From Cyclina sinensis (taxonomy: Eukaryota; Mollusca; Bivalvia; Venerida; Veneridae), in assembly GCA_012932295.1 (NCBI GenBank), contig JAAONU010000061.1, forward strand, positions 124,001 through 188,000: a stretch of 64,000 bases of DNA, in the 5' to 3' direction. Shown here piece by piece: positions 20,614-63,165 of the stretch. A program made the position numbers and the translations under genes. The notes under the pieces were generated by a model. The model saw only the letters and a program-made list of their open reading frames with translations, was not told the origin of the DNA and made no database searches. Each line of letters opens with the position of its first letter. Positions within the stretch are counted from its first letter, which is position 1.

Positions 20614-21520
20614 TTAATCCCCTTCAGCAAAGCGGGGAGGGGATTATTGGTATGGCCTCCGTCTGTCCGTCCGTCCGTAACACTTTCGTATCTGCTCCAT
20701 AACTTTTAAACTGCTGAAATTTTTTTGAAATAACTTGGCACAAGTGATCATCATTATGAGACGATGTGCAGAGCGTAATTTTTGGGTTGCTACCCCAAGG
20801 TCAAGGTCACACTTAAAGGTCAAGTATTAAAAAAAGTTTACATTTTGTGTCCACTCCATAACTTATAAACTGCTGAAAATTTTTTGAAATAACTTGGCAC
20901 AAGTGATTACTATTATGAAACGATGTGCAGAGCACAATAATTGGGTTGCTACCCCCAAGGTCAAGGTCACACTTAAGGTAAAGTGTTAAAAGTCTACATT
21001 TCGTGTCCACTCCTTAACTTTTAAACCGCTGAAAAATTTTTGAAATAACAAGTGATCATCATTACGAGACGATGTGCAGAACGCGATAATTGGGTTGCTA
21101 CCAACAAGGTCAAGGTCACAGTTGAAAGTCAAATATCCACATTTCACGTCTGCTCTATAACTTACTAACTTGGCTTACAAAAAGTTTTTAAATTTTTTTT
21201 CTTTTAATTACTTTGCACAAATGATCACCACTATGACACGATGTGCAGAACCCAACATCCAGGTTGCTACCCCTAAGGTCAAGGTTAAATGTTTTCCATA
21301 ACTTTTTGACTTTATGGAAGATTTTAAATAACTTGGCACAAATAATTACTATCATGAGACTATGTGCTTCTAATATGCATGGCACAACGTCAAGGTCATG
21401 GTTGGTTAAAGATCAAGAAGTACACTTTCATGTCCACTGCGGAAGGGGATTTTGCTGTCCTTCAGACTGCCTTGTTAATGTCCAGCATTACAATTGCCTG
21501 GCAAAGAAACGTTACCACTA
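20614..21520 (+). repeat. Modular hairpin repeat, family B
   Basis: Starts with the hairpin-like TTAATCCCCTTCAGCAAAGC continuing to GGGGATTA, then a TCCGTCCGTCCG stretch. Five diverged modules of about 170 bp follow, each with ACTTGGCACAAGTGAT, GACGATGTGCAGA, 'GGTTGCTACCCC' and AAGGTCAAGGTCAC. The last part carries GCGGAAGGGGATTTTGCTGT. The same family lies inverted at 43725-45728. Confidence 0.75.
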
Positions 21521-21529
21521 ATATTTTTA

Positions 21530-23926
21530 AACAAGAGGGCCATGATGGTCCTTTTATTGCTCACCTGAAAACAACTGCAACTACTTTCTTCACATACCAA
21601 GTATCTAAAATCCAGACCTTGCGGTTTCTGACAAGAAGATTTTTTAAGTTTTACCTATGTCAGTCCATATAAAACCAAGTGGTCCCTGGGTTAGGGCCAA
21701 TTTTGAATTTTAGCATTGGTAACCTTGACCCTAGTGACCTAAAATCCAACCCAAGGGCAAATGCTTATGATACATACAAACCAAATATCTAAGACATATT
21801 TCAATAAATGAAGATTCATGTGTTTTGCAAGATTATCAAAGCTGTGAAACCATGCAGACATAGCAAAATTAGTCTATTCTGGCCCCAATATCTCTGAAAC
21901 ACATGATGGGATCAGGTCGGTTCAGGAAAAGAAAGGAGATCTATTTTTTATAAATGTTTTGTGAAAGTTTGGTTGAAATTGAATCAGTTGCGAGCATAAC
22001 ACTATGACATAAGGTACAGAAATGTCTTTTAAACGTCTGTGACCTTTACCTTGACCCCAATAACCTCAAACCCCACCAAGTGGTTGTGGTCCATGCATGG
22101 TGTGATATCTAAGCAAAGATATCAGTCAATTAATGAAGAATCCATAACAAAAAGTAGAAATATAAGCCTATGTAAAATCATGTGGCCCCTCGGGCAGGGT
22201 CAATTTTGACCATAGGGCCATGATTTGGAACAACTTGGTGGAGGTCCACTACACAATACTACAAACGAAATATCTTAGCTATAGGTCTTGTGGTTTCAAA
22301 AAAGATAATTTTAGAAGTTTTCTTTATATAAGCCTATGTAAAATTTTGTGGCCCCTGGTGCGGGGTCAATTTTGACCTTGGCGCCATGACTTGAACAAAC
22401 TTGGTAGAGAACTACTTGACAATGCTACAAAATTACCAAATATCTTAGATCTAGGCCTTGTGGTTTCAGAAGATAAAATTTTAGAAGTTTTCCTTATATA
22501 AGCCTATGTAAAATGACATGTGGCCCCTTGGGTGGGGTCAATTTTGAACCTGGGGCCATGATTTGAACTTGGTAGAGAACCACTAGACAATGCTACATAC
22601 CAAATATCTCAGCTCTAGGCCTTGCAGTTTCAGAGGAGAAGAATTTTAAAATTTTCACTTTTTAAATCTATTTTTAGCTCCTGTGGCCCAGGTCTGCAAT
22701 GGACCAAAACTATTTAAACAAGGGGACCATTGGCCCCAAAGTGCTCACCTGAGGACAGACTGTTATTTGTGTGGAAGCTGTCATTATTTCTTGTAAATCT
22801 AAGCTCTAGCCTTTAAAGCTTCAAAGGATAATTTTCATATAAGTTTTTACTATATGCAAATAATGAATATCTATGACCCCCAGGCAGGCCCAATTTTTAC
22901 CCCGGATATAATTTGTACAAACTTGGAACAGGTTCACTAGACAATATTTCATGCCAAATAATTAAGCTTAAGGCTTTCAGAGGAGAAGATTTTTTAAGTT
23001 TTTACTATATACAAATATGGAAAACCTATGACCCCCTGGGACAGGGCCAATTTTGGCACTAAGGGCATAATTTGAACAGCTTTCGTAGAAGACCTATAGA
23101 TGATGTCATATACCAAATATCAAAGCTCTAGCCTTTGTCATTTCAGAGGAGAAGATTTTTTAAGTTTTTACTATATACATATAAGGAAAACCTAACCCCC
23201 GGGGGCGGGGCCAATTTTGGCACTAGGGGCATAATCTGAACAACCTTGGTAGAGGACCTATAGATGATGTCATATACCAAATATCAAAGCTCTGGCCTTT
23301 GTCATTTCAGAGGAAAAGATTTTTTAAGTTTTTACTATATACATATAAGGAAAACCTATGATCCCCTGGGGCGGGGCCAATTTTGGCACTAGGGACATAA
23401 TTTGAACAACTTTGGTAGAGGACCTATAGATGATGTCAAATACCAAATATCAAAGCTCTTGGCCTTGTACTTTCTGACAAGAAGATTTTTTTTTAATTTG
23501 CATTTTTGAAACTTCTTTTTTGGCCTTGTGACCTACTTATGCAACAGACCAGAACCATTTGAACAAATTTGAAAGGGGACTACCCAAGGATCATTCCTGT
23601 GTAGTTTGGTTAAATGTGCATCATTGGTTTCAGAGGAGATGTTGTTTTTATGAAATTGTTGACGACGGATGACGCACGACGACGGACACCGGACACAGGG
23701 GGATCACAAAAGCTCACCATGAGCACATTGTGCTCAGGTGAGCTAAAAACTTTGATAGAGCTTCATGCAAGGAACAAGTTTTATCAAATTTGGCCAGCTG
23801 GTTTCAGAGGAGATGTCCTTTGAAGTAGTTGTGGACGACGGCAAACAGTCAACAGATGCTGAGGGATGACAGACAATCACTGATCCTAAAAGGTCACATG
23901 AGCACTGTGTGCTCAGGTGAACTAAA
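21530..23926 (+). repeat. Modular hairpin repeat, family A, outer copy
   Basis: The head AACAAGAGGGCCATGATGG starts at 21530. Modules of about 180 bp with 'GTGGCCCC' and 'GGGTCAATTTTGAC' follow. The tail near 23890-23926 reads CACATGAGCACTGTGTGCTC, then AGGTGAACTAAAA. It is split by another family A copy at 22717-23748. Confidence 0.75.
22717..23748 (+). repeat. Modular hairpin repeat, family A, nested copy
   Basis: The head AACAAGGGGACCATTGGCCCC starts at 22717. Four modules carry 'GACCCCC', 'GGGGCCAATTTTGGCACTA' and 'AGATGATGTCATATACC'. The tail is AGCTCACCATGAGCACATTG, then TGCTCAGGTGAGCT plus AAAA. It sits inside the outer copy: host words 'CAATGGACCAAAACTATTT' and 'CTTTGATAGAGCTTCATGCA' lie on either side, and these are adjacent in the uninterrupted relative near 11610-11660. 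Confidence 0.8.
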
Positions 23927-24068
23927 ATACTTATCAGAAATTTCTTCGGAGGAGATGATGTACTTTTTTGCAAGATACAACTCAATTTAATTAGAGAAAA
24001 CTCTATGTATGCAATATGCTGTCTCAATGGTGTTAAATTTATGTAAGATAAAAGCCAGGTCCCTAATA

Positions 24069-24146: not shown

Positions 24147-24152
24147 CTGGAA

Positions 24153-24265: not shown

Positions 24266-24689
24266 TTTCTCACTAACTAGACAGAAAAATCTGATAATGT
24301 TACTAAATATACCAACATTTATATTGATCATATAAATCGGCAAACTCTTATTAGTGTCTTGCTTACAACCAGCTATGTTCCCAAGCTTACATTTAAAATA
24401 CTTATCCATTCAAAAATACAAAGATGGGGAACAAGGTATAGTACACGTACAAAGACAATACATCGTGAGAGTTAGAGGCAATAGAGAAAATGGGAACAGA
24501 ACACAGCCCACAAACACCATAGTCGGACAGCAAGCAGTATACAAGTAATCGCTAAAACAAGAACCACCACAAGCGGGGGTCACGCTCAACTTTTCTATTT
24601 CCAAAGGCAAACACATCAGAGGAAGCACATTGTGGTGAAGGGATTTCAAATGAAACATCATTTGGAAATACAATCATACATAAAATTAT

Positions 24690-27600
24690 GGCCAATTTAG
24701 CAACATTCAGGAATTTGACCTTAAAGGTCAAGGTCAAGTTCAGTTTAACCTTCTCTGGAGGTATTGTCTAAAAGGTAGTTATGTCCAAGCATGAAGACAC
24801 TACATCCATTAACAACAAAGATATAGCCAAGTTAAGTAATGTCAAGGTCATTTAAAGGTCAAGGTAATGCTTGAATTGTATAACACGTTTCTTTTATTCT
24901 CAGTGTTGTTTTGCCCCTGTATAGATCAAGTCCGTCCATAAATAACAAAAGTTTGGCTATTTTAGCAAAATGCAATAATTTGAACTTGACCGTAAAGGTC
25001 TTTTTAAGGTTAAGGTCATACTTGAATAATTTAACATGTAGGTTTTGTCATGAGAATTGTTTTGTCCAAGTAATAATAAAAAAAGAACTAAAAATGACGT
25101 TATGGTCAATATTAGCAAAATTCAATAATTTGACCTTGATAATCAGGGTCATTTGAAGGTCAAGGTCACAGCTGAAGGATTCAATGTATCAGTTTTGTCA
25201 TAAGTGTTGTTTTGTCCCAATCAAATCAAACCATAAATAACAAAAATTTGGCTATTTTAAGCAAAATTCAATAACTTGACCTTAAATGTCAAGGTCATCT
25301 AAAGGTCAAGGTCATACTTATAATAAATTAAAATGTTGGTTTGTTGTTTTATCAAAGTATAAATCAAATCTATAAATAAACAACAGTTATGACAATTTAA
25401 GCAAAATACAATAATGGGACCTTGACTGTCAAGGTCATTTTTAGGGTAAAGGTCACACCTGAATTATTCAACATGTAAGTTTTGTCAAAAGTGTTGTTTT
25501 GTTTAAGTATGAATCAAGTCTAACCATAAATTACACAGTTATGACCAATCTTAGCAAAATACAATAATTTGATCTTGCTAGTCAAGGTCATTTTTAGGTC
25601 AAGGTCTAACTTGAATCAAAATGTCGGATTTGTCAAAAGTATTGTTTTGTCCAAGTATAAATCAAATCCATCAATAAATGACAAAGTAATGACAATTTAA
25701 GCAAATTTCAAACATTTGACATTGACAGTCAAGGTTATTTTTAGGTCATGGTCACATTTGAGTTAAACAACATGTTGGTTTTGTCACAAGTGTTGTTTTG
25801 TCCAAGTATGAATCAATTCCAACAATAAATGACAAAGTTATGGCCAATTGTAGCAAACTTCAATAATTTGACCTTGAAGGTTAAGGTCATTTTAATGTAA
25901 AGTTGATACATGAAAGAATCAAAATGTCAGATTTGTCATAAGTGTTGTTTTGTCCAAGTATGAATCAATTCCATAAGTAAATGAGAAAGGTATGACAATT
26001 TAAACAAAATTCTATCATCTGACCTTGACGGTCTAGGTCATTTTTAGGCTATGGTAATACCTGAGTTATTCAATATGTCAGTTTTGTCATAATTGTTGAT
26101 TTGTCCAAGTATGAATCAAAACCAACCAAAAACAACAAAGTTATGACAATTTAAGCAAACTTTAATTATTTGACCTAGACCTTCATGGTAATTTTAAGGT
26201 TAAGGTCAAATTTGAATAATTTATCTTGTCGGCTTTGCAGTAAGTGTTGTTTTGTCCAAGTCTGATTCAAATCCAACTATAAATAACAAAATTATGGCCA
26301 GTTTTAACAAAATTCAATGATTTGACCTTGACTGTAAAGGTCATTGAAAGGTCAAGGTCAAAATTGAAATAATCATAATGTCGGATTTGTCATAAGTGTT
26401 GTTTAGTCCAAATATGAATCAAATCTATAAATAATTGAGAAAGTTATGACAATTTAAGCAAAATTCAATCATCTGACCTTGACAGTCAAGGTCATTTTAA
26501 GGTCATGGTCACATCTGAGTTATTCAACATGTCGGTTTTTTCATAAGTGTTGTTTTGTCCAAGTCTGATTCAAATCCAACCATAAATTACATAATTATGG
26601 CCAGTTTTAACAAAATTCAATGATTTGACCTTGACTGTCAAGGTCATTTAAAGGTCAAGGTCAAAATTGAAATAATCATAATGTCGGATTTGTCATAAAT
26701 GTTGTTTAGTCCAAGTATGAATAAAATCTATAAATAAATGAGAAAGTTATGACAATTTAAGCAAAATTCAATCATCTGACCTTGACGGTCAAGGTCATTT
26801 TAAGGTCATGGTCATATCTGAGTTATTCAACATGTCGGTTTTTTCGTAAGTGTTGTTTTGTCCAAGTCTGATTCAAATCCAACCATAAATTACATAATTA
26901 TGGCCAGTTTTAACAAAATTCAATGATTTGACCTTGACTGTAAAGGTCATTGAAAGGTCAAGGTCAAAATTGAAATAATCATAATGTCGGATTTGTCATA
27001 AGTGTTGTTTAGTCCAAATATGAATCAAATCTATAAATAATTGAGAAAGTTATGACAATTTAAGCAAAATTCAATCATCTGACCTTGACAGTCAAGGTCA
27101 TTTTAAGGTCATGGTCACATCTGAGTTATTCAACATGTCGGTTTTTTCATAAGTGTTGTTTTGTCCAAGTCTGATTCAAATCCAACCATAAATTACATAA
27201 TTATGGCCAGTTTTAACAAAATTCAATGATTTGACCTGCAATATGAAGGTGACGGTCATTTATGGGTCAAGGTCAAGTTGAGTCTAGTTCACTTGAAGAT
27301 CTTGTCCAAAGGGTTGTTGTGTCTAAGTATGAAGACAATCCACCAATTGATAATTAAGTTATGGCAAATTTTAGCAAAATTCAATAATTTGACCTTGAAG
27401 GTGAAGCCTGAAGGTCATTTATGAGTCAAAGTCAAGTTTAGTCCAGTCTGCTTGAAGATCTTGTCCAAAGGGTTGTTGTGTCCAAGCATGAAGAAATTCC
27501 ACCTATTAATAATAAAGTTATGGCCAATTTTAGCAAAATTAAATATTTTGACCATGAAGGTGAAGGTCATTTATAAGTCAAGGTCAAGTTTAGTCTGGTC

Positions 27601-27925
27601 TGCTTGAAATTCTTGTCCAAAGGGTTGTTGTGTCCAAGAATGAAGAGAATCCACCTACTAATAATAAAGTTATAGCCAATTTTAGCAAAATTCAATATTT
27701 TGACCTTGAATATGAAGGTCATTTAAGAGTCAAGGTCAAGTTTAGTCTGGTCATCTTGAAGGTCTTGTCCAAAGGGTTGTTGTGTCCAAGTATGAAGATA
27801 ATCCATCACAGAATAAAAAAATTATGATCAATGTTAAAGTTTTCGGACAGAAAGGGCAACAGCAACAACACCATGACTATATCAATAACTCGATTTTTTT
27901 TTCAAAAAAAGTCGAGCTAATAAAT
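24690..27925. repeat. 150-bp module array (family C) ending in a hairpin
   Basis: About 20 modules of roughly 150 bp. Each carries TTTGACCTTGACNGTCAAGG, 'GGTCAAGGTCA', 'TTTTGTCATAAGTGTTGTTT' and 'GTCCAAGTATGAATCAAATC'. Between about 26220 and 27240 the modules form a higher-order pattern of about 303 and 606 bp. The end near 27890-27919 is a hairpin (ACTCGATTTTTTT paired with AAAAAAAGTCGAGCT) followed by AATAA. It fills much of the last intron of the SF3A3 pseudogene. Confidence 0.85.
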
Positions 27926-28203: not shown

Positions 28204-28868
28204 AACAAGAGGGCCATGATGGCCCTAGATCGCTCATCTGAATACTTTTTCTTTGGGTTCGCTGTTGAGCAAACATCAGAACATTTTTAAGATTCTCCCT
28301 ATATAAATCTATATGAATTCAAGTGACCCCCACTGTAGAGCCAATTTTCACTCAAGGGGCATAATTTGAACAAACTTTGTAAATGACCTCTTGCTGATGC
28401 TCCATTAAAAATATCTAAGTTCTATGCTTTGTGGTTTCAGACAAGACGTTTTTTTAAAGTTTTCCCGATATAAGCCTATGTAAAATCAATTGACTCCCGG
28501 GGAAGGGCCAAATTTGACCCCAGGGGCATTATTTGAACAAACTTGATATAGGTCCACTAAACAATGCTACATACCAAATCTTAAGGCTCAGGGCCTTGTG
28601 GCTTCAGGCTTCAGACAAGAAGATTTTCAAAAAATTTTCCTTTCTGTTGCCACAGCAACCAGATTTCTTGATGGAATTCAATTCTTTGAACAACTTTGGT
28701 AGAGCTTCATGCAAGGAATATCCCAGGCATGTTTTGTCAATGTCGACTTAGTGGTTTAGGAGGAGAAGTTGTTCAAGTCAAATTGTTGATGACGCATGCC
28801 AACGGATGCCAGACAATCAATGATCCCAATAGCTCACCTTTGAGCACTTTAGCTCAGGTGAGATAAAA
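28204..28868 (+). repeat. Modular hairpin repeat, family A, short copy
   Basis: The head AACAAGAGGGCCATGATGGC starts at 28204. Two to three modules with 'TTGTGGTTTCAGACAAGA' follow. The tail is AGCTCACCTTTGAGCACTTT, then AGCTCAGGTGAGATAAAA. Head and tail are both present, so this is a compact complete example. Confidence 0.8.
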
Positions 28869-29640: not shown

Positions 29641-29884
29641 TCAAAATATACAGAAAGAAACATTTTACTTCTGAAAACCCAAGGTATATTTTTCTATTAT
29701 ATAATTCTATTAAGTGTACTTGTAGTCCACTTTTCAATGCATTGAAACATTATATTATTTAGAAGAACTATTAGATTTAATCTAACAATGTGCATACTGC
29801 TTAAATATCATAATTTAACATTTCACCTGTGGTAATAATAAATCTAAAATTCTAAAACACAACTTTCAAGTTACTAGAAGAAAA

Positions 29885-30365
29885 TACTTACATGCTAGAG
29901 CATCTTCTATAGATGTGACAATACTTACATGCTAGAGAATCTTCTATAGATGTGACAATACTTACATGCTAGAGCATCTTCTATAGATGTGACAATACTT
30001 ACATGCTAGAGCATCTTCTATAGATGTGACAATACTTACATGCTAGAGAATCTTCTATAGATGTGACAATACTTACATGCTAGAGCATCTTCTATAGATG
30101 TGACAATACTTACATGCTAGAGCATCTTCTATAGATGTGACAATACTTACATGCTAGAGCATCTTCTATAGATGTGACAATACTTACATGCTAGAGAATC
30201 TTCTATAGATGTGACAATACTTACATGCTAGAGCATCTTCTATAGATGTGACAATACTTACATGCTAGAGCATCTTCTACAGATGTGACAATACTTACAT
30301 GCTAGAGCATCTTCTATAGATGTGACAATACTTACATGCTAGAGCATCTTCTATAGATGTGACAT
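29885..30365. repeat. 37-bp minisatellite made from a splice donor, about 13 copies
   Basis: The unit on the + strand is ATACTTACATGCTAGAGCAT plus CTTCTATAGATGTGACA, almost identical in every copy. On the - strand each unit is the last 29 bases of the SF3A3 exon at 30336-30426, followed by its donor GTAAGTAT. The unit adjoining that exon is the original. Confidence 0.93.
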
Positions 30366-31868: not shown

Positions 31869-33824
31869 AACTAGAGCTATCACTAAATGTGATTAATACC
31901 CCAACAAGACTGCTTTGGAACTGAGGAAGTTATTAGTAACAGAATACTTTGTAAAAGAATTGAAATAGAGTTATGGTTGAGGGCAATTAAAGGTAGTTGT
32001 TGTTCTTGTACATTGCATTTCCTGTCATTGTGCTTGACCATTGTATGAAGTTGCACTAAATTCCAACGAGTAGTTTTCAAGTAATGCTCCAGACAAGGAA
32101 AACCAACAAAGGGCAATTACTGTGCAAATAGAGAAGATGGAGTAATGCCTCTTGTACAATGCACTTCCTGTCATTGTGCTTGATCACTGTATGAAGTTGC
32201 AGTGAATTCCATCCATAAGTTTTCAAGTTATTCTCTGGACAAGGAAAACCAACAAACGGCAATAACTCTGCAAGTAGTGAAGACGGAGTTATGATTCTTG
32301 AACACTGCACTTCCTCTTATTGTGCTTGACCATTCTTTGAAGTTGCATTGAATTCCAACCAGTAGCTCCAGACAAGGAAAACCAACAAAGAGCAATAACT
32401 CTGCAAATAGTAAAGATGGATTGTGATTCTTGAACAATGCACTTTCTCTCATTGTGCTTGACCATTGTTTGAAGTTGCACTGAATTCCAACCAGTAGTTT
32501 TCAAGTTATGCTCCAGACAACGAAAACCAATAAAGGGCAATAACTCTGCAAATAATGAAGATGGCATACCTGCCATAATTTTTCTGGCCATTTCCAGAAT
32601 TTTGATATCGAATTTCCGGGATTTGAGCCGATTTTCCGGGACATTCATATACTTTCAATGCCTTTCCATTGGCAGTACACAAAATTGGACGGGATTCCGT
32701 TTTTGGCGGGAAAAGCCGTGTACGTGTTTCAAATACACATCAGTACCATCAGTTTCATACCTTTTATTTTAGTTGCAAGAGCATAGTAATTATGTAGCAG
32801 TAAACATAATATAATAACTGTGTACCATTGAATAATTAACATCATAAACTTGAATTCAAGTTGAATCACGGGTGTTTGATCACAGCGTCGTCTATGCTTC
32901 GTATTACAAGTATCGGCGCAACTTGATCGAACATTACAATATTAATCACAAATACCTTTTAAACTTACCTTTTCTTTGTCGGACCGATATGTGAAAAACT
33001 CAGTTTAATTTTAAGCAGCATCTCTATCTAAGACAGCAAACAAACCACAAACAAGTTAATTATTTAAAAATCATAGTCTTTGTCAGCAAGGTCAACTTGC
33101 GTTTGCATTAAATTTAATTTTAAGTAGCATCTTTATTAACACCAATTACCGCGGCGACAGTCTTTGAAAGGGGCAGATATCTTACAAATTAATTAATGCA
33201 CCACAGGTCAATAAATCGATAGCCGAAAATTTGACTGGTCTGATCAAAGGTATGCACCTCTTTCATGTTTTCCGGGACATCGGGTGTCTTTCCGGGACGG
33301 GCCCTCAATTTCCAGGACAATCCCGGACGATCCGGGACGTATGGCAGGTATGGAAGATGAAGTTATGATTCTTGAATACTGCACTTCCTCTCATTGTGCT
33401 TGACCATTGTATGAAGTTGCACTGAATTCCAACCAGTTGTTTCCAAGTTATGCTCCAGACAAGGAAAATCAATAAAGGGCAATAACTCTGCAAATAGTAA
33501 AGACAGAGTTATGATTCTTGAACAATGCACTTCCTCTCATTGGGCTTGATCACTGTATGAAGTTGCAATGAATTTCAACCAGTAGTTTTCAAATTATGCT
33601 CTGGACAAGGAAATCCAATAAAGGGCAATAACTCTGCAAATAGTGAAGATGGAGTTATGATTCTTATACACGGCACTTTCTTTCATTGTGCTTGACCATT
33701 GTTTTAAGTTGCACTGAATTCCATCCAGTAGTTTTCAAGTTATGCTCCGGACAGACAGACCACCCACCCAACCAACCCCGGGTGACTCCTATATACCCCC
33801 CAAACTTCGTTTTGGGGGTATAAT
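31869..33824 (+). repeat. Modular hairpin repeat, family D
   Basis: Starts AACTAGAGCTATCACTAAAT, then GTGATTAATACCCC. Modules of about 150 bp with 'AATTCCAACCAGTAGTTTTC', 'GGGCAATAACTCTGCAAATA' and 'GTGCTTGACCATTG' follow. It ends in the hairpin ACCCCCCAAACTTCGTTTTG plus GGGGTATAAT. It is split by a small transposon at 32565-33352. It lies in an intron of the SF3A3 pseudogene. Confidence 0.8.
32565..33352. mobile_element. Non-autonomous DNA transposon, hAT-like, with TIRs and 8-bp target duplication
   Basis: 788 bp bounded by perfect 13-bp terminal inverted repeats, CATACCTGCCATA at 32565-32577 and TATGGCAGGTATG at 33340-33352. Flanks are GAAGATGG (32557-32564) and GAAGATGA (33353-33360), an 8-bp duplication with one change. 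The sister modules nearby read GAAGATGGAGTTATG without interruption, giving the empty site. The interior has no coding capacity and carries TTCCGGGACAT-like words near both ends. An 8-bp duplication suggests the hAT superfamily; the family is not otherwise identified. Confidence 0.85.
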
Positions 33825-34461: not shown

Positions 34462-36093
34462 AATGGGCCTGGGTGGCTCACCTGACTTTTTACTACAGAG
34501 TGCAAAAAAAGCCCATTATGCACATCTACACTTACTGGTGAACATGTATACCAGGTTTCATATCAACAGCCCTGTATAAATGTGAAAGTAGTTCATGCCA
34601 CAAGATTTCTTCTACAAACCGATCAAGCAACTGACTGTAAGATGACTCATGTATACCCCAGCAACAAAGTTTGGTGGGGTTCTCATAAGCTTTTCAAAGT
34701 TGTCCAATAAAGACACAAGGGAAAAATAAGCCAAATTAACCCTGGCAGCCATGTTTCTTTACAGATCACAATAAATTTTACAATTTATATACAGGGTCAC
34801 CTAAGCAACATATATGCCAAATTATTTTCAAATTGGACTTGCAGTGTCTAAGTAGAAGATTTTTTAAGATTTCCATAAAACATGACAAAAAAGGAAAAAT
34901 AATCCCCTACCCTTGGCAGCTATGTTATTATGGATTGAAATCTATTTTAAAATTTACTAGTATATAGAAGTTCATACAAGGAACACTTCTGCCAAATTAT
35001 TTTCAAGTCAGGCCAGGAGTTTCTGAGAAAAAGAACTTTGAAGTTTTTCCTAACAGTTCCATGGTAACAAAAATTCTGCATGGAATTTCATTTCTTATAT
35101 GATTTTGAAATCGAACCATCTAAGGATCATTCCTGTGAAGTCTTAATGTAACTGGCCTATTGGCTTTAGAGAAGAAGATTTATGAAATCTTTTCCTATAT
35201 GGCCAATACGAACCTCTGAGATTTTTGTACAGGTCCACTAGATGATGCTACAAACCAAACATCTAAACTCTAGGCCCTGTGAATTCTGACTTGAAGATTT
35301 TTAAAGATTTCCTAAAAGCTCTGTGCAAAATGAAGTAACCCCTAGGGTGGTGCCAATTCTTACCCCAGAGCCATGATTTATATGATTTTGCTAGATGCCC
35401 ACTAGATGATACTACATATTAATATCTAAGCTCAAGGCCCTGTGGTTTCAGACAAGAAAACTTTTAAGATTTCCTACAAAAGTCTTTGCAAAATGAAGTA
35501 AACCTTGGGTGGGGTCAGTTCTATCCACAGAGTCATGATTTAAATGATATTGGTTGAGGTCCACTAGATGATACTACAAACCAAATATCTAAGCTCTAGG
35601 CCCTATGGTTTCAGACTGGAATTCAAGATTTTCTTATAAAGGTCTATGTAAAATCAAATAACCCCTTAGGTGGGGCGAATTCTGACCACAGAGCTATGAT
35701 TTATTTGATTTTGGTAGTGGTCCACTAGATGATAAAAGTCTAGGAAAAAATGAAGTGACCCACTGAGTGGGATGAATTCTGTTCCAAGAGCCATAAATTA
35801 AATAATCCACTTCATGATTCTGCAAAGCAAATATATATGCTCTAGGTTGTGTGGTTTCAGACAAGAAAATCTTTAAAATCTTTCCTTTCAGTTGCCATTG
35901 CAAGCAGAGTTCTGCATGGAATTCCATTTTTTATATGATTTTGAAAGCAGACTAGACAAAGATCATTCCAGTGAAGTTTTGTTGCAACTGACCCAGTGGT
36001 AAAGTAGAAGATGTTGTATGAAGTAAATTGTGGACAATAGACAGAGTGACAAAAGAGCATACTAAAAGCTAAACCTTTGGTAAGGTGAGCTAA
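34462..36093 (+). repeat. Modular hairpin repeat, family A, diverged
   Basis: The head is worn (GGGCCTGGGTGGCTCACCTG at 34465). Six or more modules of about 170 bp carry 'GGCCCTGTGGTTTCAGAC', 'CCACTAGATGATACTACA' and 'AAATGAAGTAACCCC'. The tail is AACCTTTGGTAAGGTGAGCT plus AAAA. Confidence 0.7.
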
Positions 36094-38652: not shown

Positions 38653-38789
38653 TTACTGAAGCTTAAGAACTTCACTTTATAGCAATTTCCCAAAACATAC
38701 AATTTCTGTGTACAGAACTGATAAATGTTCACGTTTGTCAAAATAATTAGAAATATTTGGAACAATAGTTCGAAACTAGAGTTGTGTCC

Positions 38790-45608: not shown

Positions 45609-45728
45609 AAATTTCCAGCGGTTTAAAAGTTATGGAGCAGACATGAAAGTGTTACTGACTGACAGACGGATGAACAGACTGAGGCCATTCCCATAATCCC
45701 TTCCCCGCTGTGTGGAAGGGGATTAACA

Positions 45729-48744: not shown

Positions 48745-50186
48745 TCAAAGTCTTAAAAGGGGAATAACTAATAAAAATGCTTAACAGAGTTATGGGCCTT
48801 GATGGAATGACACAGTCTACGGCCAAGTTTGAACCAAATATCTGCAGCAGAAAGGGAAGAAATAGTGAAAATGAGAAGCTTGCCCTAAAACTTTAACCCA
48901 ATAGCACACCGCAAGTACAATAGACCTCCTTATTCTTTGAATAGTCGACAAAAAAATGTTGTAAATATTTATGTACTATGAGGAATCACATTAGCGAAGA
49001 TGAAGAAAGAGACACACAAGTAATTAAATGTTGCTGATATTAAAATAAGCAGGTAAAATTTAAAAAACGTTACACATGAAAGTTAACTACAGATTAAAGT
49101 ATAGAAACCCCAGGTGTGTCAGGTCCCGTAAAAAACATAACCCTTCCTTTACTATCATCTACACATTAAGGTTGTTCATCCCTGGAAGTTTAAGCAAAAT
49201 CTGCCATCCGGTTTATGAGGAGTTGCGTTCACAAATTTATTTCACTTTGTGGTATATAGTGTAAAAATCAACAAAGGGCCATAATTCCGTTAAATTTAGT
49301 CGCAGCAAAAATTCCTTCCTTTACTATCATCTACACATTAAGGTTGTTCATTCCTGAAAGTTTAGGCAAAATCTGCCATCCGGTTTATGAGGAGTTGTGT
49401 TCACAAATTTATTTGGCTATATGGTATATAGTGAAAAAATCAACAAAGGGCCATAATTCCTTTAAATCTGGTCGAAGTATAAATTCCTTCCTTTACTATT
49501 ATCTACACATTAAGGTTGTCCCTGAAAGTTTAAGCAAAATCTGCCATCCGGTTTAAGAGGAGTTGCGTTCACAAATTTATTTCACTTTATGGTATATAGT
49601 GAAAAAAATCAACAAAGGGCCATAATTCTGTTAAATTTGATCGCACCAAAAATTCCTTCCTTTAATAACATCGACACATTAAGGTTGTTCATTCCTGAAA
49701 GTTTAAGCAAAATCTGCCATCCGGTTTATGAGGAGTTGCGTTCACAAATTTATTTGGCTTTATGGTATATAGTGAAAAAAATCAACAAAGGGCCATAATT
49801 CCGTTAAATTTGGTCGAAGCAAAAATTCCTTCCTTTACTATCATCTACAGATTAAGGTTGTTCATCCCTGAAAGTTTAAGCAAAATCTGCCATCTGGTTT
49901 AAGAGGAGTTGCGTTCACAAAATTTCAGGACGTATGTACAGACGTACAATCAACAAAGGGCCATATTTCCGTTAAATTTGGTCGAAGCAAAAATTCCTTC
50001 CTTTTCTATCATCAACACATTAAGGTTGTTCAACCCTGAAAGTTTAAGCAAAATCTACCATCCGGTTTAAGAGGAGTTGCGTTCACAAAATTTCGGGATG
50101 TACCTACAGACGTACGGTCGTATTATCGTACGGACTGACGGACAAGTGCAACGCTATATGCTCCCCCTTTGTGGGGGCATAAAAAC
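48745..50186 (+). repeat. Modular hairpin repeat, family F-like, six 172-bp modules
   Basis: Modules carry ATTCCTTCCTTTACTATCAT, 'CTGAAAGTTTAAGCAAAATC' and 'AAAGGGCCATAATTCCGTTA', starting near 49141, 49314, 49488, 49655, 49828 and 49999. After CGGACTGACGGACAAGTGCA the end is ATGCTCCCCCTTTGTGGGGG plus CATAAAAAC. Confidence 0.8.
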
Positions 50187-50672: not shown

Positions 50673-53013
50673 TCACACTACATGTGGAAGGTTATCATAA
50701 AACCCATGAAAGTCACGAAGGATAACCGACTTGAGTTGCATTAAATGCATGTATTTGGTTTTCTTTATTGGTATACTATTTTTGTATAACTTTTTCGGTA
50801 CGTTCAATGCTGATACAACTTGGCCACTGCTTGCTCTAGGCCTTGGAAGGTCCTGAAACACGTCACTATACCTGAGCTTAAACTCAATTGTTCCATTTGT
50901 GTTGTACTGAAGAACCCGTATATCAGTCACAGTAGCTTCTCCCGTTCCACTACCCGGTCTTATCGACGCATAATAATTCAGACCCTTGTAGTCATTGAAA
51001 AACTTATGGTCCACATATTTCACTTCGTATTTGGGATCTGTTGTTTTAGCAAGTAGAACTTTGTCCACATACATTTGAGGCACATAGATTGGCTGCTTAC
51101 GCAGTTTTCGTTCTATAACGGAGTGCACACTATCGCACTCCATTTGAGTGTACCCCCGTTCTAAATATTTCTGATAAACTGTAATGTTGTTTTTAACCGC
51201 CCACAGAAAAAGTGCGTTTGCCATACTATTTCTATTCTGGTATGTGCAGCCACACTGTAAATGATAACAGTTTTTACATTCGACTTGTCTGGAATAGCGT
51301 CTAAGTAATCAATAACGCATGAGGCAAAAACATTTGCATTTAAATCACCCTCACCCTCATCCCAAAAATAATTGTTTGCTCTATTTGTTGCAAGATCAAA
51401 TAATGTGAAATTATGACATGACAGTTTCATTTCATAATAGATTACACTAGCCTCCAGATGCCGACAAATGAGCAGACTTTGAAGATCCATAGTTATAACC
51501 TTTACACTTTTATCTTGTAAAGCTAGGCTTTTATCTACACTTTTACTTTCTCTCGCCTCATTTTTCCTTTCAATATGAATGTTATAGTCATCAATATCAA
51601 TATTCCCTACATTATGTTCTACACATTTGTCTCATTGGTCTTTCTTTGGTTTGAATAAGTTAATATTTTCAAAAAGTTCTAAAAATCCAGATTTATTGAA
51701 CAGAATTTTCCCTTCACTTTGTGCTACACGAACATATTCTCGGTGTAGTTGACTCTTATTATCGAATGTACACTCAAGATACAGTTTCTTTGATTTCGAT
51801 CTACAATAGTGAGACTCTACCTTGGGCAATTTTGGTCAGATACTCCCTTGCTGCGTTTTCTCGTTCCTTGTTTAATCTTATACGTTCAGAATATGATAAT
51901 CTATGCTCTTCCATTACTATAGTACTTTCATCTTCAATCTGCTCTTGCTGTCTATTTTCACTTTCATTTGGTGTGCTATGTTTACAGTCGTTTTTCTTAT
52001 TTGGTACCTTTTCCATTGAAGCATTGTTACTTTCACTATTTTCATTATTTAAGCAATTATAGATGGTTCTATTATTCATGCCAAGTGTGGCACTAAACAT
52101 GTTTTGGCAGACTTCCACTCTTTCAGATCCTCTCCTAAGAAAATATTTGCAGCTGTAAGTGCGCCGACTCTCTATACCCGGACCTTTAGTCCTTTGCTTA
52201 ACTTCAACTCTGTCAACAAAACTTTTCAAATATTTGTCCTCTATCTTTATCTGTAAATAAATCACAATGCGTGTTTTTACTCTTCTGACACTATTTGCCA
52301 CAGTTAGCGGGACACAGATATTTGCCTGCATGTTCCATACAGTACATTTTAATCCCTTGTTCATTCTTCTTTACACCTGTGTACTTTTCTCCTTTCATTG
52401 TTTTGTGTTTCTGTATTTCCTTCATTTTACCGTTTTTACGTTTTCTTTTCAGCTGATTGTTTGGCTCCTTATTTTGAACAACTTCTTCATGGTCTATCTC
52501 TTGAGATACATTGTTGTTTTCATCAGTTCCTGAACTATGGTTCTTGTTCGGGTATTTCCAATTAGGATCTCGTAGTTCATCGTCATAATCAACCGTTATA
52601 TCAGAATCACTTAGATTTTCATGTTCAGGCCAGACTACTTGGTTAAGAGCACTACTTGGTAAATCCTTTGTGAATAAATTTGGTATGTTTTGTACTAAAG
52701 CTACTGATTCGACGTTTTCCTGTGACGTAGATGGCTGAGGAACATGTTCAAAATTTTCACATGATAGTTTTGTTGCTGTGTATTCACTTGTACTTAGTTT
52801 TGTTCCATTTATTATGCCATTTTCAATAGTAAAAATTAATGCACTTTTTGTTTCAGAATTTTCACATGATAGATTTGTTGTTGTGTTCTCACTTGCTTCG
52901 TTTATTTTGCCATCTTTAATCATAAATCCTCTTTTTGTTTCAGAATTTGATTGAAACTTATCTTCATTCGCTTTTAGCGATATTTGTACTAAAAGTTTTC
53001 CCTGAGAAAACAT
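50673..53013 (-). pseudogene. Transposase-like protein gene, multiply disrupted
   Basis: A single-exon reading of about 750 residues on the - strand. Order: an acidic N-terminal region (52293-53013), CPANCGK, a region ending MNNRTIYNCL, then LPKVESHYCR, LFKPKKDQ, ITMDLQSLL, FWDEGEGDLNANVFASC, the GCTYQNRN block and RGYTQMECDSVHSVIERKL, then SIRPGSG and FHGFYDNLPH at the C-terminus. This is the layout of a family common in arthropods and molluscs with a YSDGC...NRN...GHTQMECDSVHS signature, thought to be transposase-derived; I cannot name the superfamily. Lesions: TAG at 52291-52293; a deletion with frame change near 52230-52250; an extra A near 51830; TGA for Cys at 51632-51634; and one base lost near 51253 in the codon for the YSDGC Asp. 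Confidence 0.85.
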
Positions 53014-53099
53014 TTTCCTTATTATTTTCTAATATAATATATGTGCACACTCAGATTTTTATATTGCTTACAGAGCCTGCAAAACCAAATTTCATATTC

Positions 53100-53742
53100 C
53101 ATACTCTCTTAAGACAGTGCAAAGTAGTTCAATTGATCATTTAAGATACAGAAACAGTGTTCCACTGACAATTTAATACCACATACATCTAGAATGTGTA
53201 ACTGTTTCTATGAGGAGCACACCCTAACAACTGTACTTGGTTCAAAGTTATTAAAAGAAAGGTACAAACTCTCTAAAAGAGATAATGATCTGACTGCTTC
53301 TAAGTCTTCATCAACTAAATTCACACATTCAGATTGATTCAGCTCTTTCAAATTACTGAAGCAACTTACGAAACACAGAGAAGATAATCTGTATCCTGTA
53401 AGGTCAAGTGATAGTAAGTCAGCCTGTCTCAATTTTGTACTGAATTGGAAGTCCAAAACATCTGATGATGCATGAATAATTGAGTTTGGAATATGGAACT
53501 TTTTTATTCCAACTGAATGATTTAATATGTCAATGAGGTTGTCCTTCTGCAGTTCCAGTTGAAAACTGAATTCAAAATTCTTCCACAGCCAAGATGTTTC
53601 ACTGATCAATATATAAAGTTTTTTGTTCACTTAAGACACGCTTTGAACATGTTGAATAAGTTCCTCTAATGAAATGAAACTGAGAATATTTATGATCACT
53701 AAATCTGGTAAATCAGACAAGCTGCTTGATACCTCCATTAAC
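53100..53742 (-). pseudogene. F-box/leucine-rich-repeat protein gene, exon 2, with in-frame stops
   Basis: After the acceptor TTTCTTTCTATAG the frame reads MEVSSSLSDLPDLVIINIL and SFISLEEL...VS, a typical F-box start, then the LW pair of the F-box (TSWLWKNFEF). Leucine-rich repeats follow: LLSLDLTGYRLSSLCF, LKELNQSECVNL and LLESLYLSFNNF. Such proteins are usually substrate receptors of SCF ubiquitin ligases. Three stops interrupt one continuous frame: TAA at 53631-53633 where a Cys or Arg is normal, TAG at 53208-53210 where Leu is expected (KQLHILDVCGIKLS follows in frame), and TAA at 53109-53111. So it is a recent pseudogene, or the stops are sequence errors. It lies about 90 bp from the start of the transposase-like pseudogene. 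Confidence 0.75.
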
Positions 53743-53744: not shown

Positions 53745-54465
53745 ATAGAAAGAAAAAAGTAAGAAAAGTTACATTAATGCAGCTTGAAAGTGTCTTAAAA
53801 CTTTTTAAATTAAAAGTTGTGCTTCAAAATTATGTAAAGGTATCATATCCCACCAATTTTATTCATGATGGTGTCTTGATTTTAAAATTAATAAAACTAC
53901 TTCATACTTTCTCTGATGCCCTAATATATCCAAAACTAATTGAAAATTGTAAAATGTTCTTTGATTGCATTTAACCATTATTATGCTTTAAGTCACATCA
54001 TTCAAAATTTGTAAAATAATGTCGCACCTGCTATTTTAAGACCAAACTTGTATGACTCAGTGCTGTCCATATATTACACAGGCCACACCATTAATAGTGG
54101 TCAGAGAACCGACAGGAATGTTCATATTCAACAGCTTGTAACCTTTTGTACATGGAAAAGTGTAACAACATCTTCACAAACAGACCTGAAAATGTATTAA
54201 ATTTTTCATTTTACAACTTTCATTTGATGTTCATGCTAAAGAACCTTTAACATGTCTTTGTGTTTTTCTTTACTTTATAAAACAAAATGGCAGCTTGGTA
54301 TTACTGTTTAAAAGTTAAGATACATACACAAAATGCTCTTATAACATTCAGTTAGAGTGTGCGGAAATGGCAAAACTCATCCAAAAATTTAGATCATCAG
54401 AAATTTATTGTGCGAAAATGGCGAATTAAAACTGAGATAACTAGAAATGGGTTTTTGATTGAACA
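53745..54465. other. Intron of the F-box/LRR gene, first part
   Basis: A+T-rich, no array or exon supported. The intron runs from 55470 down to 53743 on the - strand and also holds the repeat at 54466-55214. Confidence 0.4.
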
Positions 54466-55214
54466 AACACATATGTCTCCCCCCCAGCCAGTTGCTGCAG
54501 GTAGTATTGAGTCAGAGGATTGTAAAATTTGACATTTAACCTCCAAGTGTGACCTTGACCTTAAGACACCACACCCGCAGAGTGGGTTCTGCACGTCACC
54601 TTGATGAGGTGAACATCTGACCCAAGTTTCATTAAAATCCTTCAAGGGCTTTTGAAGATACAGAGCGGACAAGATTTTGTGGCATTTGACATTTTACCTC
54701 CAAGTGTGACCTTGACCGTGAGACACCACACCCACAAAGTGGGTTCTGCACGTCACCTTGATGAGGTGAACATCTGACCCAAGTTTCATAAAAATCCTTC
54801 AAGGGCTTTTGAAGATACAGAGCGGACACGATTTTGTGGCATTTGACATTTAACCTCCAAGTGTGACCTTGACCTTGAGACACCACACCCGCAAAGTGGG
54901 TTCTGCACGTCGCCTTGATGAGGTGATCATCTGACCCAAGTTTCGTAAAAATCCTTCAAGGGCTTTGGAAGATACAGAGCGGACACAATTTTGTGGCATT
55001 TGACATTTAACCTCCAAGTGTGACCTTGACCTTGAGACACCACCACTGCAAAGTGTGTTCTGCACGTCGCCTTGATGAGGTGAACATCTGACCCATGTTT
55101 CATTAAAATCCTTCAAGGGCTTTGGAAGATACAGAGCGGACACGATTTTGTGACGGACAGACAGACGGACGGACGGACAACCGGGGGAAAAACAATATGT
55201 CTCCCCCATTTTTG
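54466..55214 (+). repeat. Modular hairpin repeat, family G, with terminal inverted repeats
   Basis: Begins ACATATGTCTCCCCCCC. Four modules of about 158 bp carry 'CCTCCAAGTGTGACCTTGAC', 'GGGTTCTGCACGTC' and 'GGTGAACATCTGACCCAAGT'. The end is a GACGGACAGACAGACGGACG stretch and the hairpin ATGTCTCCCCCATTTTTGGG plus GGGAGACATAATAA. The start and the reverse complement of the end match over about 14 bases. Confidence 0.85.
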
Positions 55215-55470
55215 GGGGGAGACATAATAATGCTTTCCATAACAGTTGTTTAGAACAAGAAACCACTAAATAGAAAATAAAAACTTGCAGACTCGGAAAA
55301 TATGGAGGATTGGCAATTTGTTGATCCTTTCTTTGATAGTAGGATTGATCATTCACGATAAAAAGGCGTTAAAATGTTAGATACCAGTAATTAACATCAT
55401 CAATATAAACATGAACATTCTGAACATTCTTGTTAAATGATTAAATATCTAAAAACAGAATAAAACTTAC

Positions 55471-55748: not shown

Positions 55749-56010
55749 TAAATTATCTTGGCTGACACATTTAGATGGATGAAAAGACTTAAACTAAATT
55801 TCAATCCAATACATTCAATATATTTCACACTTTGATATACAAGCATTAAAGAAAATGAAAACTTAAATAGGGTGTCCTGTGACACTGACACAAAGGCAAG
55901 TACAATACCAGTAATTGTTCTTATTCATCCAATAGTAGATTAAAAGTCACCTCCAATAGAGAACACACTTGTCATAAATGCCATCAAATGAGGACACACA
56001 AGTAATCAAA

Positions 56011-57416
56011 CTAGAACAATCACTAAAGGTGATTAATACCCCACATGGGTGCTTGATTCAGGAACTGGAAAGCTTAGAATCAATGGCATAATAGTTTAAA
56101 CGAACAGTGACCATGACCCAACTGGCAAAATTTTCAATCCAAAGCATCGTCTTCACAGAAGCTACCTTTACAGAAAAATTTCATCACAATATCTCATTCC
56201 TAAAACAGGTTATTGAGCAGAAATCATTTATTTTTTGTAACAGTGACCTAGACCTTGGCCCCACCAGCCTCTATATCAAACATGACCTGTATCCTGTGAT
56301 GTTACACCTGTGTAACGTAAATGTTTAAATCTGTCAAGATTTCATGAGTTATCACCTGGAAACCATTTTATAACTATTTTATTCTTTTTAATAACAGTGA
56401 CCTTGACCTTGGCCCCTATAGCCCCAATATCAAGCTTGACAATATGTTATGATGTTACATCTTTGTACCAAAAATTGTTTAAATCTGTCAAACCATTAAT
56501 GAGTTATCAGTGACCTTGACCCCACAAGTCCCAATATCGAACTTGACCTGTATATTATAATGTTACACCTGTGTATCAAAAATTGTTTAAATCTGCTTAG
56601 CCTTTCAAGAGTTATTGTCCGGAAACCATTTTTCTAATTTCAATCACAGTGACCTTGACCTTGGCCCCACAAGCCCCAATATCGAACTTGACCTGTATCT
56701 TATGATGTTACAACAATTTTCAAATCTGTCAAGCCTTTCATGAGTTATTGTCCCAAAACTGTTTTTCAATTTTCAGTCACAGAAACATTGACCTTGGCCC
56801 CACCAGCCCCAATATCAACCCTGACCTGTGTCTTATGATGTTACAACTTTGTACCAAAAATTGTTTAAATCAGTCAAGCCTTTCATGAGTTATCATCAGG
56901 AAACTGTTTTTCTTATTTCAGTCACAGTGACCTTGAACTTCGCCCCACAAGCCCCATTACTAAACTTGACCTGTATCATATGATATAACATCTGTTTACC
57001 AAAAATTGTTTAAATCTGTAGAGCCTTTCATGGGTTATCATCAGGAAAAAACGTTTCTTATTTCAGTCACAGTGACCTTGACCTTGGCCCCACCAGCCCC
57101 AGTATCGAATTTGACCTGTATCTTATGATGTTACACCTGTGTACCAAAAATTGTTTAAATCTGTCAAGCCTTTCATGAGTTATTGTCCGGAAACCGTTTT
57201 TCTAATTTCAATCACAGTGACCTTGACCTTGGCCCAAGAAGCCCCAATATCGAACTTGACCTGTATCTTATGATGTTAAACCTGTGTACTAAAACATTGT
57301 TTAAATCTGTCCAGCCTTTCATGAGTTATTGTCCGGAAACCATGATGGACAGACCGACCGACCAACTGCCAACCTTGCTCCTGTATACCCCCTGAAACTT
57401 TGTTTGTGGGGTGTAA
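56011..57416 (+). repeat. Modular hairpin repeat, family D-like, inserted in the 1.78-kb repeat
   Basis: Starts CTAGAACAATCACTAAAGGT plus GATTAATACCCC. About eight modules of 150 bp carry 'GTGACCTTGACCTTGGCCCC', 'CAAGCCCCAATATCGAACTT' and 'AATTGTTTAAATCTGTCAAG'. After GACAGACCGACCGACC the end is TACCCCCTGAAACTTTGTTT plus GTGGGGTGTAA. The uninterrupted sequence CAAGTAATCAAATTAAACC is present in the two sister units near 59180 and 60955. Confidence 0.9.
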
Positions 57417-61389: not shown

Positions 61390-61400
61390 CTGAAAATACA

Positions 61401-61647
61401 ATGACAAATATGTAGTAATGATAATGGAATGACAAATATATTAATTGCAAATTGTTCTGCATAATTTAGATGATGAGTGTTGAATAAACAGAAATGCTAG
61501 ATGCAATGCTTATAGAAAGAACCAAAGGAAATGAATCCAGAAGTTTTGAACAAAAAAACTTTTAAATAAACATAACAATATTAATTCATTCCATCTGACA
61601 CAATCCCTTTTGCCTACATATTAACAACACATCAGAATAGAATAAAA
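61401..61647. other. Intron-like sequence upstream of the exon at 61286
   Basis: A+T-rich, no feature supported beyond the polypyrimidine tract at 61390-61405 on the - strand. Confidence 0.3.
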
Positions 61648-63165
61648 ACAAGAGGGCCATGATGGCCCTAGATCGCTGCAAGTTTTGCTGTAAAGCAGTA
61701 TTTCATATTTCAATGAAAAATATGTAAGTAATGTAATATAAATATGTCAAATATCAGTCAATAAATAAAGGCTCTATGACAGAAAGTAAAAATATCTATC
61801 ATAAGCTATGGTGACCTTGACCTTAACCCAGTGAACTCAAACCCTACCCATGGGTAGAGGTTCATGCAAGGATCCTATATACTGAATATCAAAGATATTG
61901 GTCTTCAAATGAAGGCTCTAAAAAGTACAGTAGATCTCGATAAACTTTCTTTAACCTTGGTGACCTTAAACCTATTCAAATTATTTGTAAAAGCTTGATA
62001 AAGCTTGCTTCATGCCAAATTTTAAAAATCTAGGACTTGCTGTTTCAGATATGAAGATTTTTTAAAGTTTTTCTTCTACACTGCTATTTAAAACTTGTGA
62101 CCCCCTCGGGAGGGGGCAAACAGTTACCCAAGGAAAATTTTTCTAACATACTTGGAAGACGTCCTCCAGACATTGCTGCATACCAAATCGTAAGGCTCAT
62201 GGTCTTGTAGTTTCATACAAGAAGATTATTCAAAGTTACCCTATATAAACCTATGTAAAAATCAGTTGACCCCCAGGCGGGACCAAATTTGACCCCAGAG
62301 GTATAATTTCAACAAACTTGGTTGAGGTCTACTAGATTTTGCTACATACCAAATCTTAAGGATCAGGGCCTTGCGGTTTCAGACAAGAAGATTTTCAAAG
62401 TTTTCTATATGTAAAATCAATCGACCCCTAGGGCGGGGCCAAATTTGACCCAAGGGGCATAATTTGAACAACCTTTGTAGAGGTTCACAAGTCAATGCTA
62501 CATTCCAAATCTTAAATCTCTGGGCCTTGTGGTTTCAGGCAAGAAGATTTTTAAAGTTTTACTATATAAGCCTCTGTAAAATCAATTGACCCCCGGGTAG
62601 GGGTCAAATTTGACCCCAGAGGCATAATTTGAACAAACTTTGGTAAAGGTCCATACGACAATGCTACATTCCAAATCTTAAGGCAAAGGGCTTTGTGGTT
62701 TCATACAAGAACATTTTTATAGTTTCACTATATAAGACTAAGTAAAATCCATTGACCCCCTTCAGGGTGGAGCCAAATTTAACCCCAGGTATATGATTTT
62801 AACAATCTTGGTTGAGGTCCGTAAGACAATGATAAATACCAAATCTTAAGGCTCTGGTCCTTGTGGTTTTAGACAAGAAGATTTTCAAAGTATTCCTAAT
62901 GTAAAATCCATTGACCCCCGGGGCGGGGCCAAATTTAAACCCAGGGGCATAATTTGAAAAAACTTGATAGAGATCCACTAGACAATGCTATATAACAAAT
63001 TTTAAGGCTCAGGGCCTTGTGGTTTCAGACAAGAAGATTTTCAAAGTTTTTTCTTTCAGTTGCCATAGCAAGCAGAGGTCTTGTTGGAATTGAATTCTTT
63101 GAACAACTTTTGTAGAGCGTCATGCAAGGAATATCCCAGGCATGTTTCATCAATGTTGGCTCAAG
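61648..63165 (+). repeat. Modular hairpin repeat, family A, tail missing
   Basis: The head AACAAGAGGGCCATGATGGC starts at 61648. Six modules of about 160-180 bp carry 'GGCCTTGTGGTTTCAGACAA', 'GACCCCCGGG' and 'GGGGCATAATTTGAACAAAC'. The family's 'CATGCAAGGAATATCCCAGG' block is reached, but the terminal hairpin is absent and the sequence passes straight into the next array. Confidence 0.75.

Follow-up and report, generated by a model that had tools for sequence, protein, structure and literature searches.

Hairpin-ended modular repeats crowding a genomic interval of the bivalve Cyclina sinensis are very probably non-autonomous Helentrons

A 64,000-nucleotide stretch of the genome of the venerid bivalve Cyclina sinensis (NCBI GenBank assembly GCA_012932295.1, contig JAAONU010000061.1, positions 124,001 to 188,000, forward strand; here called the window) is densely filled, between positions 20,614 and 63,165, with hairpin-ended modular repeats. 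Here, we identify these repeats, with a probability of roughly 0.93, as non-autonomous Helentrons (HINEs), which belong to the Helitron2 group, form several families and share one rule for the 3′ terminus. They are non-coding rolling-circle transposons of a type published from oysters and, as elements, are ordinary.

On the plus strand, the layout is AACWAGAR or AACAAGG with a short hairpin, tandem units of about 65 to 180 bp, a GAC-rich stretch, a stronger hairpin, and an A-rich flank. On the opposite strand, TT^ (the caret marks the insertion point) is followed by the 5′ hairpin, in which the first arm constitutes the 5′ inverted repeat, then by the array, the matching inverted repeat, the 3′ hairpin, and CTWGTT. 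We assign the elements to HINEs because this reversed layout is the anatomy published for them, namely, a subterminal inverted repeat (subTIR) with an inverted repeat (IR), a GTCY microsatellite, a satellite-like tandem array, a 3′ subTIR, a palindrome, a TT target, and no target-site duplication (TSD) (PMC7492417; PMC4067079; PMC3627910; all papers are cited here for selected sections). Both ends were located in 11 window elements, all on this one plan, and the central tandem repeats and microsatellite that mark HINEs are present in the window elements. An initial annotation of the sequence had proposed a single class of non-autonomous, possibly rolling-circle-like elements in which one end plan encloses varied modules. 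This proposal stands, but the direction is reversed, the annotated head being the 3′ terminus and the annotated tail the 5′ end. Novelty was not borne out, since oyster HINEs with monomers of 138 to 181 bp were published in 2020 (PMC7492417, in the sections cited). Family letters other than A, D, and F were assigned in this analysis and may not equal the B, C, E, and G of the annotation. Elements are named below by their first coordinate in the window.

The two ends are joined by a feature that the annotation had overlooked: the inverted repeat in the head is an arm of the tail hairpin. The longest exact match between the two ends of the same element averaged 8.0 nt and was at least 7 nt in 9 of 14 elements (11 in the window and 3 elsewhere), against a mean of 4.26 nt and 7 of 144 for control pairings of ends between families; the boundaries of 21530 and of the copies at loci L023 and L020 are off by a few bases in this comparison, which lowers some scores (L020, 6 instead of 10). 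In a search version, a shared arm of at least 8 nt was found at 9 of 22 heads (spuriously at 46970) versus 12 of 300 random positions. A looser scan for these asymmetric terminal inverted repeats (ATIRs) was set aside (733 of 4,000 random positions passed), and a tighter scan still gave chance matches, with at least 7 nt at 83 of 3,000 random positions and at 10 of 107 motif sites. The repeats lie at the very 5′ end but about 20 to 35 nt inside the 3′ end. Arm letters vary by family (AGCTCACC, ATACCCCC, AATCCCCTTC, ATGTCTCCCCCC, AGCTCGAC, and ATGCCCCC), and the end pairs co-vary (AGCTCACC with GGTGAGC, ATACCCC with GGGGTAT, AATCCCCTTC with GAAGGGGATT, and ATGTCTCCCCCC with GGGGGGAGACAT), while CTWGTT is constant.

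Heads consisting of AACWAGAR and a hairpin, as the annotation described them, were recovered at 21530 (with an imperfect hairpin), 28204, 44471, and 61647 for family A, at 31869, 56009, and 38774 for the D type, and at 46970 for family F. AACWAGAR alone is not enriched: its 21 window matches compare with a mean of 17.4 in shuffles, and 23 of 100 shuffles reached at least 21. The combination with a hairpin is beyond chance. Over 277 kb of sequence, a perfect hairpin (stem of at least 5) began no more than 3 nt after AACWAGAG at 19 of 42 sites, or at 12 of 34 (5 in the window and 7 at other loci) once the 8 sites used to fetch loci were removed; the counts were 3 of 65 for AACWAGAA, 1 of 63 for AACAAGG, and 2 of 39, 1 of 26, 0 of 90, 0 of 84, and 1 of 82 (0 to 5%) for five altered or reversed control motifs. 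The short palindrome near the 3′ end that is typical of HINEs is thus present at 12 of 34 non-anchor AACWAGAG sites, but 3 of 9 folded 3′ ends were no better than shuffles (z from −3.1 to +1.8 for the nine). The GACGGAC stretches and end hairpins are present as described, and the ten tail hairpins that were folded gave z values of −6.5 to −1.4 against shuffles.

For three nested copies, a paralogous target site is available, and in each case the insertion is directly 3′ of TT, with no target duplication, the element’s own 3′ end also being TT. The copy at 44471 to 45605 splits a family-B module that is intact at 20616 to 21476, and the joined site reads AAA, six or seven T, ^GAAATAAC. The copy at 22717 to 23744 lies inside a family-A element with an uninterrupted relative at 11455 to 12300 (site GTTGTT^CAAAT; the left flank carries mutations, and six bases in the relative lack an exact explanation). 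The third, a D copy at L023:1128-2242, interrupts a tandem array in which the other units are intact, and its site (AAATTATT^GAATT) was read by eye from the surrounding units. Of 11 window elements, 10 have TT before the 5′ end (21530 is one base off), a count that is not independent, as the boundaries had been set after the T-run. In the material analysed, the heads and tails of different families share a plan, and the element boundaries match the insertion edges at the three paralogous sites, in keeping with the annotation.

These precise TT^ and CTWGTT^ edges, together with the family-specific end-to-end inverted repeats and the dispersal of over 11,000 identical 3′ ends, speak against ordinary dispersed satellite arrays, moved with other repeats or by extrachromosomal circles, in which the hairpins would be array edges and not transposon ends; we hold this explanation to be very improbable, even though most modules have the usual satellite size (140 to 180 bp) and related modules occur with different ends. 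Less credible still are cut-and-paste elements resembling miniature inverted-repeat transposable elements (MITEs), that is, terminal-inverted-repeat transposons with internal arrays and the former name for such bivalve elements (Pearl was first described as a MITE, according to the cited section of PMC7492417), because the inverted repeats, although present at both ends, are asymmetric and target duplication is absent at the three sites. Canonical Helitrons (Helitron1; 5′-TC, CTRR-3′, insertion between A and T) were considered and rejected, the ends here being TT^A... and CTWGTT^N. A literature search on these end letters returned nothing relevant.

In the 903-Mb genome, the 23-base family-A head (3′ end) has 11,753 exact copies (6,105 forward and 5,648 reverse). 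The D-head pattern has 885 copies, the family-B 23-mer 19, and a variant A pattern 10. None of the reversed control patterns had any copy. Among the matches listed, none to Helitron_like_N, the Rep-Helicase (RepHel) profile, fell on the window contig, the longest stop-to-stop frames overlapping window elements measure 121 and 172 amino acids (aa), and a Pfam search of six window frames gave no family at 1e-3. Genome-wide, Helitron_like_N has 104 matches. Seven of these have identical scores and 2,052-aa open frames (C5:11968131, C7:574195, C8:3652030, C11:34858071, C12:43008901, C14:25692664, and C15:36206661) and perhaps represent a recently active autonomous Helitron family; one such frame carries Rep and PIF1 helicase domains (1,978 aa scanned). 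A 2,634-aa open frame on contig C102 contains Helitron_like_N and, in its last 282 aa, Exo_endo_phos (E value, 1.1e-5; 25.7 bits; cut-off, 24.5). Judged by predicted domains, a Rep-Helicase with a fused endonuclease, the Helentron signature, is present in the genome. A different 9-bp hairpin lies about 500 bp after this frame.

Several results weigh against the HINE identification. The target-site evidence amounts to three sites only. Own-end matches are weak at 28204 (4 nt), 46970 (5 nt), and 24556 and 41725 (6 nt); folding of the heads is no better than in shuffles for 21530, 20616, and 54439 (z above 0) and less than 1 standard deviation better for 44471 and 46970. An autonomous element with these ends was not found at the two of 104 RepHel loci looked at: no hairpin-CTWGTT end occurred in 16 kb around the 2,052-aa copy on C5 or, on either strand, in the 5 kb that start within the C-terminal part of the C102 frame and continue downstream.

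Tandem modules of about 65 to 180 bp are present as claimed by the annotation, whose further statement that modules differ completely between families failed in a self-comparison of the window, where relations were found across ends. Family-A modules also lie behind the D-type 3′ terminus at 38774 (69 to 79% identity), the array at 37982 to 38640, which ends in a different hairpin, is akin to the D modules (65 to 69%), and F modules are related to those of 24556 to 27918 (70%). Because related modules sit behind different ends, ends and modules are partly exchangeable. The sharing of modules between end types is observed directly; their capture and amplification by the elements may lie behind it. 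Oyster HINEs are described, in the section cited, as showing unrelated repeats between shared ends as well as change in concert (groups 1 to 3) (PMC7492417).

The closest described system is Cg_HINE of Crassostrea gigas (Vojvoda Zeljko et al. 2020, PMC7492417), which, in the sections cited, has a 5′ subTIR and IR hairpin, a GTCY microsatellite, central repeats of 138 to 181 bp, a 3′ subTIR followed by a palindrome, a TT target, and no TSD, as well as families with related ends and unrelated repeats; there too, no related autonomous partner is described. It comes from a different genome, and the likeness is one of described plan. The DINE-1/Helentron-HINE pairs of flies and mites (Thomas et al. 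2014, PMC4067079) share subTIRs, a 3′ palindrome, a T-rich target, the lack of a TSD, central repeats, and a Rep-Hel-endonuclease partner; the sections cited report nearly identical partners, whereas none was found here at two loci. Helitron2 (Bao and Jurka 2013, PMC3627910) and FoHeli of Fusarium (PMC5148889) are described as having ATIRs, hairpins at both termini, and a 5′ repeat that forms the 5′ hairpin, but their terminal letters and targets differ (TTTT^T/C and TNAT^A).

By extension from Helitron work, a Rep-Helicase-endonuclease supplied by autonomous elements would nick the 5′ junction TT^A, and one strand would be peeled off and replicated. When single-stranded, the 5′ repeat could pair with its own hairpin partner or with the 3′ repeat, and the 3′ hairpin with CTWGTT, a structure seen directly in the sequence, would serve as the signal to stop and cut. 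As seen at the three sites, entry of the strand is directly 3′ of TT and leaves no target duplication. The central arrays of roughly 65- to 180-bp units are carried along; they may arise in the course of rolling-circle replication through slippage on the template, the formation of concatemers, or exchange.

Three elements on the plan (20616 to 21476, 24556 to 27918, and 41725 to 45724) were added to those of the annotation. Two HINEs are on the plus strand. The family-B copy at 20616 to 21476 (AATCCCCTTC ends) has a 5′ hairpin from 20616 to about 20646, a GTCC microsatellite, 159-bp modules, the 3′ terminus ...GACTGCCTTGTT, and a 10-nt ATIR (GAAGGGGATT); a family-A copy at 11455 to 12300, opposite in orientation and outside the interval, has its 5′ hairpin at 11462 to 11490. 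The others are on the minus strand. In family A, an outer element at 21530 to 23922 (3′ terminus at 21530; 5′ hairpin ending near 23922; ATIR, 8 to 9 nt) encloses 22717 to 23744 (ATIR, 11 nt), and a short, decayed copy at 28204 to 28864 has an exact ATIR of only 4 nt. The nested family-A copy at 44471 to 45605 (ATIR, 9 nt) lies within the family-B HINE at 41725 to 45724 (ATIR, 6 nt), which also contains two tRNA-like sequences (Rfam matches at 42360 to 42432 and 44274 to 44346). A family-A 3′ terminus with modules at 61647 to 63165 continues into another 170-bp array, its 5′ end not being found, and a HINE with A-type modules at 34737 to 36090 has its 5′ end near 36090 (GTGAGCTAAAA), its 3′ end not being located.

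Family D (ATACCCCC ends) is represented by 31869 to 33821 (146-bp modules; ATIR, 7 nt), which is split at 32568 to 33353 by a different element with inverted ends (GGCATACCTGCC...GGCAGGTATGG), single-copy in the sequence examined, and by a D-type HINE at 56009 to 57414 (145-bp modules; ATIR, 8 nt). The D-type 3′ terminus with family-A modules (38774 to 39430) has the ATACCCC ATIR, a GTGTCC hairpin, and CTCTAGTT, with no 5′ end found; the array of D-related 156-bp modules (37982 to 38640) has a GACGGACGGAC stretch and no 3′ end found. The element at 24556 to 27918, with 152-bp GTCAAGGTCA modules, has a 5′ hairpin (AGCTCGACTT..AATCGAG), a degenerate 3′ hairpin, and an ATIR of only 6 nt. Family F at 46970 to 47803 (151-bp modules) retains both hairpins, the 3′ one weak, with an ATIR of only 5 nt; family H at 54439 to 55225 (157-bp modules, 94% matches) has an ATIR of 12 to 13 nt and no 3′ hairpin found; and a HINE-like array of 168- to 173-bp modules at 49130 to 50180 has the 5′ hairpin ATGCCCCC and no 3′ end found. 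Among other features of the window, a 37-bp unit repeated 13 times at 29883 to 30364 (98% matches) is apparently a young minisatellite, more short-unit arrays (27 to 32 bp) occur at 24150, 7904, and 47807, and consecutive minus-strand frames of 140 to 245 aa at 50676 to 53630 may be the remains of a transposon-encoded protein (no family in Pfam at 1e-3).

Copies lying close together tend to have the same orientation. Among 16 window elements with a direction given by end signatures, 14 point one way (21530, 22717, 24556, 28204, 31869, the tail at 36090, 38774, 41725, 44471, 46970, the tail at 50180, 54439, 56009, and 61647), and the other two (11455 and 20616) are both at the left. The 16 leave out GAC-only signals (among others, 17209, 17395, and 18964, plus, and 17878, minus), an isolated site resembling a tail at 55733 (plus), and a 91-bp family-A match at 77 to 167 (plus). 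Orientation beyond the window was analysed with the first 100 matches listed of 11,753 for family A (C1, 0 to 10.2 Mb), of 885 for family D (C1 and C2, 0 to 26.4 Mb), and, as a control, of 826 exact genome copies of a 20-base core (C1 and 22 Mb of C2) taken from a tRNA-derived repeat resembling a short interspersed element (SINE) at 39500 to 39640. Family B, with 19 exact copies, was too small for a third test.

Same-strand pairs of family A numbered 37 of 41 at less than 20 kb, 130 of 206 at 20 to 200 kb, 190 of 330 at 200 to 500 kb, 239 of 421 at 0.5 to 1 Mb, and 316 of 614 at 1 to 2 Mb. In the same bins, family D gave 6 of 6, 27 of 37, 45 of 70, 47 of 80, and 66 of 144, and the SINE gave 0 of 2, 13 of 21, 14 of 23, 21 of 43, and 50 of 103. 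In the four bins below 1 Mb, these values were reached in 0, 0, 4, and 2 of 1,000 permutations for A and in 8, 2, 11, and 45 of 1,000 for D, versus at least 185 of 1,000 for the SINE; for both families, the excess fades at 1 to 2 Mb. Adjacent family-A pairs were on the same strand in 65 of 99 cases (reached by 20 of 20,000 permutations), and the range of the family-A cumulative sum (CUSUM) was reached by 16, 272, and, with thinning to 100 kb, 23 of 20,000. On C1, family A forms blocks of 13 plus and 36 minus (0 to 5.65 Mb) and of 35 plus and 8 minus (5.65 to 9.5 Mb), or 6 and 18 and 14 and 1 after thinning to 100 kb, with limits picked after seeing the data.

Other results count against coherent orientation. 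Among random 10-kb pieces with at least two library matches, 4 of 7 were uniform (L013, L020, L023, and L032) and 3 of 7 mixed (L014, L029, and, through two tiny matches, L028). Adjacent family-A pairs thinned to 20, 50, and 100 kb were matched by 3,423, 6,946, and 1,550 of 20,000 permutations. Adjacent D pairs within 500 kb (35 of 52; 30 of 46 and 23 of 39 with 20- and 50-kb thinning) showed no clear difference from SINE pairs (22 of 38, 22 of 36, and 19 of 30). The in-sample SINE control has too few copies, and the genome SINE sample is likewise too small to rule out an effect shared by repeats generally. Overall, coherence is probably real at short range and suggestive at 0.1 to 1 Mb.

We lean slightly towards coherent orientation of these HINEs as a by-product of local events (nested insertion into a single-stranded intermediate, local duplication, or intron selection) or as a general repeat effect, independent of replication direction. 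Coherence is strongest below 20 kb, in both A and D; nested pairs are co-oriented (22717 in 21530, 44471 in 41725, and the insertions in L023); the SINE same-strand fractions at 20 to 200 and 200 to 500 kb, though not significant, are about as high as those of family A; and the adjacent D and SINE pairs do not clearly differ. On the other side, family A keeps its blocks on C1 at one copy per 100 kb (23 of 20,000 permutations), and D agrees with the A majority more than the SINE does (7 of 8 versus 2 of 9 places within 300 kb; 6 of 8 versus 4 of 9 within 100 kb); the SINE agrees with D at 19 of 37 places within 300 kb.

The plus-strand letters at the family-A 5′ ends at 23735, 45596, and 36083 are CAG^GTGAGC or AAG^GTGAGC, which resemble the splice donor consensus. 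Such ends in introns could give rise to orientation-dependent selection.

It is also possible, though doubtful, that a strand preference constant over up to about 1 Mb and common to unrelated families arises because the single-stranded element joins exposed TT on the lagging-strand template at replication forks. The model would be IS200/IS605, described (PMC5371812, in the section cited) as transposing as a single strand with an orientation that follows host replication direction; those elements are bacterial and excise, and a link to replication here would be by analogy. GC skew outside HINE matches was negative in plus-oriented and positive in minus-oriented stretches in 9 of 12 stretches with more than 300 bp of HINE matches, a pattern that unmasked modules may cause. 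TT is about 6% commoner on the favoured strand in the window from 21 to 64 kb outside HINE matches, too little to explain the orientation. The cited sections on Cg_HINE describe how the arrays are oriented with respect to the ends and insertions in either orientation, and not strand agreement between neighbours (PMC7492417); in the collection of papers searched, no listed paper dealt, for Helentrons, with orientation bias and the lagging strand or with fork direction and transposon orientation.

The identification extends the oyster finding of Helentron-carried tandem repeats to another genome, and in large numbers. As the 3′ rule of hairpin and CTWGTT is kept while the inverted repeats of both ends change together, end recognition becomes testable. 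If insertion did follow forks, thousands of copies would preserve a fossil record of the direction in which forks move in an animal germline. Should the coherence hold genome-wide and be absent in controls, eukaryotic rolling-circle insertion would be tied to replication forks, and fork direction could be read from sequence alone.

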